NCBI RefSeq assembly: GCF_027744825.2
Contig: NW_026527057.1
Coordinates: 868,001 to 932,000, forward strand
Length of the DNA stretch: 64,000 nucleotides
From: Synchiropus splendidus
Lineage: Eukaryota; Chordata; Actinopteri; Syngnathiformes; Callionymidae
Direction: 5' to 3'
The number at the start of each line of letters is the position of its first letter. The stretch's first letter is position 1. A model generated the notes under the pieces. It saw only the letters and a program-made list of their open reading frames with translations. It was not told the origin of the DNA and searched no databases. The translations under genes were made by a program, and so were the position numbers. Shown here piece after piece: positions 48,521 to 48,733 of the stretch.

Positions 48521-48733
48521 AAAACGGAGCACGTGGCAGAGGTGGTCCGCCGCTGCCCCCACCACCAAGATGAGGACGCTGCAGAAAACAGCAGCCACTT
48601 GATTCGGCTCGAGGGCAGCCAACTGGCACTATATTATGAAGACCCCAACACGAAGAGGCATAGTGTGACTGTGCGGTATGAACCGCCTCAGCTTGGCTCT
48701 CGCCATACGACCATTTTGCTGTCATACATGTGC
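48521..48733 (+). pseudogene. tp53-like: Captured TP53 DNA-binding-domain fragment
   Basis: About 71 codons match the central part of the vertebrate p53 core domain, equivalent to about human residues 165-238: KTEHVAEVVRRCPHH, then HLIRLEGSQ, YYEDPNTKRHSVTVRYEPPQLGS (split here by family knowledge) and TTILLSYMC. It retains the zinc ligands of the RRCPHH loop and ends exactly at the next zinc cysteine, so it lacks the second half of the domain including the DNA-contact loops. It favours p53 over p63/p73, which have a different RCP-x-H loop. In vertebrate TP53 this stretch spans parts of three exons (5-7 in human numbering), yet no intron is present, so it was copied from mRNA. The wording is teleost-like. 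It cannot act as a sequence-specific DNA binder by itself. Confidence 0.85.

Follow-up and report, generated by a model that had tools for sequence, protein, structure and literature searches.

Most known cases of host-gene capture by retroviruses come from individual tumours or from passage in the laboratory. In defective transducing (acute transforming) retroviruses, e.g., the avian and murine v-onc viruses, a piece of spliced host mRNA stands in place of env, and env-intact relatives are potential helpers. Feline leukaemia virus, an exogenous virus, has reportedly transduced Notch2 in lymphoma, and the maize long terminal repeat (LTR) retrotransposon Bs1 is said to hold intronless pieces of several host genes, at low copy number. 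Here we describe a 64,000-nucleotide (nt) stretch of the mandarinfish Synchiropus splendidus (assembly GCF_027744825.2, contig NW_026527057.1, positions 868,001 to 932,000; hereafter the window), in which a foamy-like endogenous retrovirus (ERV) carries a piece of the tumour-suppressor gene tp53. Our reading, held with a probability of about 0.82, is that a spliced 213-bp tp53 cDNA lies in the broken env of a young foamy-like ERV, that it likely arose through template-switch capture of packaged tp53 mRNA, and that it is likely inert at this locus.

In kind, the element is a transducing retrovirus: spliced host coding sequence lacking the tp53 introns has replaced a viral gene, env. Unlike the v-onc viruses, however, it belongs to a germ-line family found at no fewer than 73 places with serial captures and no transforming activity shown, and it carries a tumour-suppressor fragment whose 5' join is out of frame and which has no start in the window copy. 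It shares with feline leukaemia virus the uptake of a Notch piece, here 117 nt of Notch1 EGF sequence for which no clear use of the frame is seen, and differs from the plant element Bs1 in that a foamy-like retrovirus of a vertebrate has drawn on seven host sources, with many reassortments. A single vertebrate genome offers a base-level record in which the undamaged site, the initial capture, with the homologies at its joins, and the captures later layered on it can all be seen, so that how host RNA is captured, and at what rate, becomes directly testable. It also documents the passage of p53 and PTEN pieces through a germ line within an endogenous virus, as well as a way in which new fusion frames arise.

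In layout, the element resembles the FLERVs of ray-finned fish as presented in the main text of PMC5512871, with which it shares a foamy-type protease-reverse transcriptase (RT)-RNase H, additional frames on either side of env (between it and pol, and downstream of it), a large genome (16.5 kb here versus 17.4 kb there), a primer site that we assign to the tRNA-Lys type and very young LTRs. It differs from them in that the frame in gag position starts with a Macro domain and env is replaced by host cDNA pieces. The terms “p53” and “captur” are absent from that main text, as are “retro”, “p53” and “pten” from the main text of the mandarinfish genome paper (PMC8664458), and among the open-licence papers listed, as judged by title and abstract opening, none describes such a capture and none concerns Synchiropus retroviruses. 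As far as searches of this literature show, a foamy-like ERV with env replaced by a tumour-suppressor piece, on which more host RNAs were later layered, is undescribed.

A spliced tp53 fragment in the window

An earlier sequence-only reading of the window had recognized about 71 codons of the central p53 core, crossing two exon junctions without introns and hence copied from mRNA into a retroelement, and each of these points was borne out; the provirus is very young. Residues 13–83 of the frame starting at 48485 matched p53 chains in the PDB (102 distinct sequences at E ≤ 0.001; top match 4mzi_A at E 5.1e-21 among the best 60 examined), and residues 12–83 matched the Pfam family P53 (PF00870, E 1.1e-13). 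The best matches were thus to the p53 family, and chance similarity could be ruled out (E 5e-21). The top-scoring database p53 was that of Synchiropus picturatus, with 96% identity across the p53 part. The genome's own tp53 (G000:C3, locus L039) is divided into exons by introns at 3761–3825, 3939–4247 and 4358–4436 in L039 numbering, all GT..AG. The window copy spans the first two of these and lacks both, and the other p53 copies are likewise uninterrupted across every tp53 intron they span. The window piece is exonic tp53 sequence derived from a spliced mRNA.

Copy number and evidence for a single capture

A genome-wide search with a p53 profile returned 58 matches, i.e., nine exons of three cellular loci, namely tp53 and two paralogues (L037 and L038, probably tp63 and tp73), and 49 dispersed intronless copies including the window. 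All 49 copies were read, 28 as 7-kb stretches and 20 as 0.8-kb stretches, plus the window itself. A DNA search with window positions 48490–48770 added 24 further places with p53 joined to METRNL, a lower bound given that 40 of 163 candidates were scored, so that all or part of the p53 piece occurs at ≥73 places (the window and ≥72 others). Along G000:C1, between 39.85 and 40.19 Mb, p53-METRNL copies recur repeatedly ~13,062 bp apart, which resembles a tandem array of the element.

Sought in other copies, the joins of the p53 piece recur many times within the same assembly: the original 3' join is kept in 39 of the 49 copies and the original 5' end or join in 11. The copies also share differences from cellular tp53, specifically A186A wherever the site is covered (43 of 43), S218S and Y219Y in 48 of 49 (L059 has a deletion at this place), and, in each of the 45 copies that could be compared, G245G and S246N. 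Together, the fixed differences and joins common to the 49 compared copies point to one capture. As S. picturatus p53 likewise has N at position 246, the donor allele is probably older than the S found in the tp53 of this assembly. A 1-nt insertion that seemed to be shared among copies turned out to be the p53/env join. Finally, the backbone of copy L034 is 77–84% identical to that of L009, yet their p53 segments are 98.5% identical, indicating that the cassette moved between subfamilies.

The intact env site and the original joins

Searching the genome with a 196-amino acid (aa) piece of env gave 150 matches, 43 of which lie in open frames of 1,426–1,511 aa. From the same search came 11 matches, in 396-aa frames, that make up a distinct env subfamily (~77% identity), as well as 18 near-identical copies whose 242-aa frames are directly preceded by a stretch containing two TAG stops. 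The undamaged 5' site, with leader and KRRRRR furin site, was seen in short pieces of three env-bearing copies (L066–L068), and the 3' site AGAAAAGTGGAAA was present in all six env-bearing loci L060–L065. In the p53-bearing lineage, p53 replaced env from the furin site between leader and surface protein to ~12 codons before the env stop, the tp53 sequence originally captured being ~390 nt long in place of most of env. Env and tp53 mRNA have 8 nt in common at the 5' join (AAACGGAG) and 13 nt at the 3' join (AGAAAAGTGGAAA), and this shared sequence suggests that RT switched template onto a packaged tp53 mRNA. A 150-aa stretch termed X in L019 and L024 was considered as another host capture and dropped: a database search returned nothing for it, and it starts like the env surface protein.

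Within the window, p53 has a viral segment beside it on one side only, rather than on both as in the earlier reading. A remnant of the env leader adjoins it at the 5' end, whereas its 3' neighbour is METRNL, in frame, rather than viral sequence. The description of the element as almost unmutated likewise held for the LTRs, gag and pol, but not for env, which is destroyed. In place of an intact env, comprising leader, furin site and C-terminal membrane portion, stand host pieces, which makes the window copy a derivative defective in env and not a complete FLERV.

Further host pieces in the ruined env region

Beyond p53, the env region of the window holds pieces of METRNL, Notch1, 28S rRNA and a DUF4504 gene (Table 1), and other copies add PTEN, histone H1 and a different 28S piece. 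The p53/METRNL join shares 6 nt (TGTGCA) and the PTEN/p53 join shares GAAGACC. The donor genes compared were those of tp53, METRNL and PTEN, and like the p53 piece, the METRNL and PTEN pieces lack the introns of their own genes. Shared sequence at the H1/p53 join was considered and dropped, the H1 donor lying outside this comparison. Among the 49 copies, we counted PTEN in 12, Notch1 in 7, METRNL in 4, DUF4504 in 2, the 28S piece of the window in 10 and, in 29, the other 28S piece, either long or reduced to 34 nt, all lower bounds with 20 loci read as 0.8 kb only. The window 28S piece scored 29.9 bits (E 4.2e-6) on 96 bases, where the family gathering score is 50; an Rfam scan of the whole window gave nothing at gathering score, and one of 46700–50400 gave one chance-level match and no rRNA. 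The different 28S piece, in L022, matched RF02543 at 334 bits (E 1.9e-89; 331-base query). PDB searches of the DUF4504 piece and of a wrong-frame Notch stretch yielded nothing useful.

The PTEN piece was identified by PDB search and was not recognized by Pfam. PTEN had 21 matches in the genome, including the cellular gene, whose residues 1–32 and 25–57 lie at two places 3.5 kb apart. All 12 strong matches fell in p53-bearing copies. In L024 (positions 2185–3840), a single 552-aa frame runs through env leader and surface start, a T-run, PTEN 1–89, p53 and Env tail, and the segment ahead of PTEN 1–89 looks like the PTEN 5' untranslated region. In 21 places, p53 is split by a 303–305-nt gap with its second part running on to METRNL, and a 22nd p53-METRNL place has the second p53 part alone. 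The one split copy that was read, L072, has histone H1 as the insert and joins env leader, H1, p53 and METRNL in a single frame, which is the native one for both p53 and METRNL. Two proteins of S. splendidus that carry a histone H1-like annotation are chimeras of H1 and METRNL. As p53 is truncated or interrupted by PTEN, by H1 and by METRNL alike, it was probably captured first. Two near-identical METRNL genes were also found in opposite orientation (C2:16166266–16169944 and C2:31213093–31216699), which is a matter of duplication or assembly.

Coding capacity of the captured p53

The sequence-only reading had left two options for the p53 piece, a decoy or dominant-negative peptide or an inert piece. 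Translation of the captured p53 into a peptide that aids the virus would fit the p53 frames being open in most of the 49 copies, with the zinc-loop residues RRCPHH and YMC retained, the 12 of 12 strong PTEN matches lying in p53-bearing copies, four of them in uninterrupted PTEN::p53::Env-tail frames (L019, L021, L024 and L050), and the single frame of L072. In the window, however, the frame of p53, 281 codons long, has its first ATG at codon 82, where the p53 part ends, and only 8 of the 49 copies have an in-frame ATG upstream of p53 (via the start of PTEN or env in L019, L021, L024 and L058, via T152M in L010 and L036, and also in L029 and L050). The original env leader-p53 join, as judged from a copy keeping the env start and from env-bearing relatives, is out of frame, and the window retains it.

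Substitutions argue in the same direction. Across 46 copies (three with indels dropped, and ends near secondary joins trimmed), the distinct p53 changes comprised 22 nonsynonymous, 9 synonymous and no stops, against a neutral expectation of 67–71% nonsynonymous, 26–31% synonymous and 2–3% stop; an R256* stop in L056 and L057 falls inside the trimmed zone. These numbers match the neutral expectation, i.e., no constraint on p53 is visible, albeit with low power at 2–3% divergence. The changes include R231 and R232, which we take to be the equivalents of human R248 and R249, and the piece ends before what we assume to be the limits of the tetramerisation domain. A decoy role is accordingly very unlikely and is not supported for the window copy, for which the inert option is the better reading: because no in-frame start codon precedes p53, the window piece presumably makes no p53 peptide and is probably inert. 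The rarer fused frames of other copies may have a function.

Origin of the capture

The p53 piece would have been acquired when a virion packaged tp53 mRNA and RT switched template at short shared sequence, with p53 replacing env. The env-less genome could then spread by retrotransposition or with envelope from env-intact relatives, and the dead env region, free of constraint, would keep taking up cellular RNAs (METRNL, H1, PTEN, Notch1, two 28S pieces and the DUF4504 gene) while cassettes pass between subfamilies by recombination. Alternatively, a double-strand break in proviral DNA may have been filled in with host cDNA during repair, the provirus so mended being amplified afterwards. The row of several short unrelated pieces, one of them antisense, would be explained in this way, and short shared sequence at the joins fits end joining equally well. 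Yet 13 shared nt at the 3' join is long for end joining, the exchange of the L034 cassette between subfamilies is what would be expected of co-packaged genomes, and 28S rRNA, which is commonly packaged, was taken up twice from different regions, all of which make repair an unlikely origin. A processed tp53 pseudogene made by a long interspersed element (LINE) and landed in the provirus would also be intronless, but it is highly improbable here, as the piece is internal to the mRNA, with no 3' end or poly(A), and env is replaced at shared sequence rather than interrupted. We give almost no credence to an assembly or contamination artefact, given the ≥73 places on many contigs with differing secondary changes and the two H1-METRNL chimeric proteins annotated from S. 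splendidus contigs.

Several points nonetheless weigh against capture by template switching followed by inertness. The antisense DUF4504 piece is harder to make by simple strand transfer, the donors of Notch1, H1 and DUF4504 stood outside the gene comparison, and envelope supply in trans by env-intact relatives is a step that we infer. The env region as the spot of capture partly reflects sampling, as the stretches fetched lay mainly around p53, along with some env pieces, so that captures in other parts of the element or in p53-free copies would have escaped notice. With regard to function, neutral substitution is compatible with a recent role, and the test has low power at 2–3% divergence. 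Of the seven clear joins, five leave each partner in its native frame, more than random joining alone would produce (p53-Env tail, p53-METRNL, H1-p53, PTEN-p53 and the p53-PTEN join of L056 and L057), the out-of-frame ones being env leader-p53 and the p53-filler-PTEN join of L030–L033; at a chance of 1/3 each, P is about 0.045 for this post hoc tally. In addition, 15 of 45 METRNL matches lie in 518-aa frames, and the one read consists of env leader, H1, p53 and METRNL. It is conceivable, but unlikely, that the element, once p53 had taken the place of env, became a serial assembler of in-frame host fusions from spliced cellular RNAs (Env leader-H1-p53-METRNL and PTEN-p53-Env tail), and that some of these fusions, by working against p53 or PTEN in germ cells, were selected and aided the spread of their lineages to dozens of copies.

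The carrier provirus

The carrier of the tp53 piece is a foamy-like ERV of 16,516 bp (37741–54256) bracketed by a 5-bp target-site duplication (Table 1). Among solved structures, its pol is nearest to foamy viruses by sequence comparison: the best PDB match was the protease-RT-RNase H 7ksf (E 8e-62, 212.6 bits), collinear over pol residues 18–727 through protease, RT and RNase H, and the next group, Ty3, followed at 108.9 bits. We take 7ksf and 7o24 to be foamy virus structures. The foamy protease family A9 (PF03539) gave a weak match in pol (E 0.0034, 18 bits against a 21-bit cut-off). The primer-binding site is presumably of the tRNA-Lys type. The Macro domain (PF01661) of the gag-position frame lies at 40307–40615 (E 8.3e-9), and macro-domain frames are mentioned for epsilon-like fish ERVs in the text of PMC4977317. 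None of the three accessory-position frames, i.e., the one between pol and env and the two after it, matched a Pfam family. The first of these was considered as an envelope surface region and dropped, as the FLERV layout and the copies keeping the env start place it between pol and env. At the fish substitution rate of 1.46e-8 per site per year given in PMC5512871, the three LTR differences would correspond to a rough insertion age of ~54,000 years.

Table 1 Features of the provirus and of the host pieces it carries (window positions)
Feature	Positions	Strand	Evidence or remark
Target-site duplication AACGC, left copy	37736..37740	.	Sequence
5' LTR, TG..CA, 1,900 bp	37741..39640	+	blastn versus 3' LTR 99.84%, 3 mismatches
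LTR tandem repeats	37780–37874, 38455–38896 (5' LTR); 52396–52490, 53071–53512 (3' LTR)		
Primer-binding site TGGCGCCCGAACAGGGAC	39641..39658	+	Sequence; directly after 5' LTR
gag-position open frame, 1,218 aa	40088..43744	+	Macro domain PF01661 near N-terminus
pol open frame, 1,157 aa: RT, RNase H, integrase	43297..46770	+	Pfam, PDB
Open frame between pol and env, FLERV acc3 position	46679..47827	+	Layout as in the main text of PMC5512871
Antisense piece of host DUF4504 (PF14953) gene	47919..48071	-	Pfam E 3.3e-11; also in copy L036
Remnant of env leader to TLKR of furin site	48264..48520	+	96–97% to env-bearing L066–L068
tp53 cDNA fragment, core domain, fish residues 150–220	48521..48733	+	PDB, Pfam, comparison with own tp53
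METRNL cDNA fragment, in frame with p53	48729..48989	+	One gene intron absent at 48755–48758
Viral sequence found after env in other copies	48995..49150	+	Copy comparison
28S rRNA fragment RF02543, model 2775–2874 region	49145..49195	+	Below gathering score
Notch1 EGF-repeat fragment, 117 nt	49204..49320	+	PDB Notch1 5fm9_A E 8.5e-23; Pfam EGF
Open frame downstream of env, 238 aa, accessory position	49616..50332	+	
Open frame, 666 aa, accessory position	50333..52333	+	
Polypurine tract GGAGGGGGA	52348..52356	+	Sequence
3' LTR	52357..54256	+	blastn versus 5' LTR
Target-site duplication AACGC, right copy	54257..54261	.	Sequence

Each LTR contains two tandem repeats, one of 48 bp (2 copies) and one of 51 bp (8.7 copies). 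Around the provirus, the window (1–37740 and 54257–64000) holds an array of ~250 copies of a 188-bp satellite, with 97% and 96% matches.
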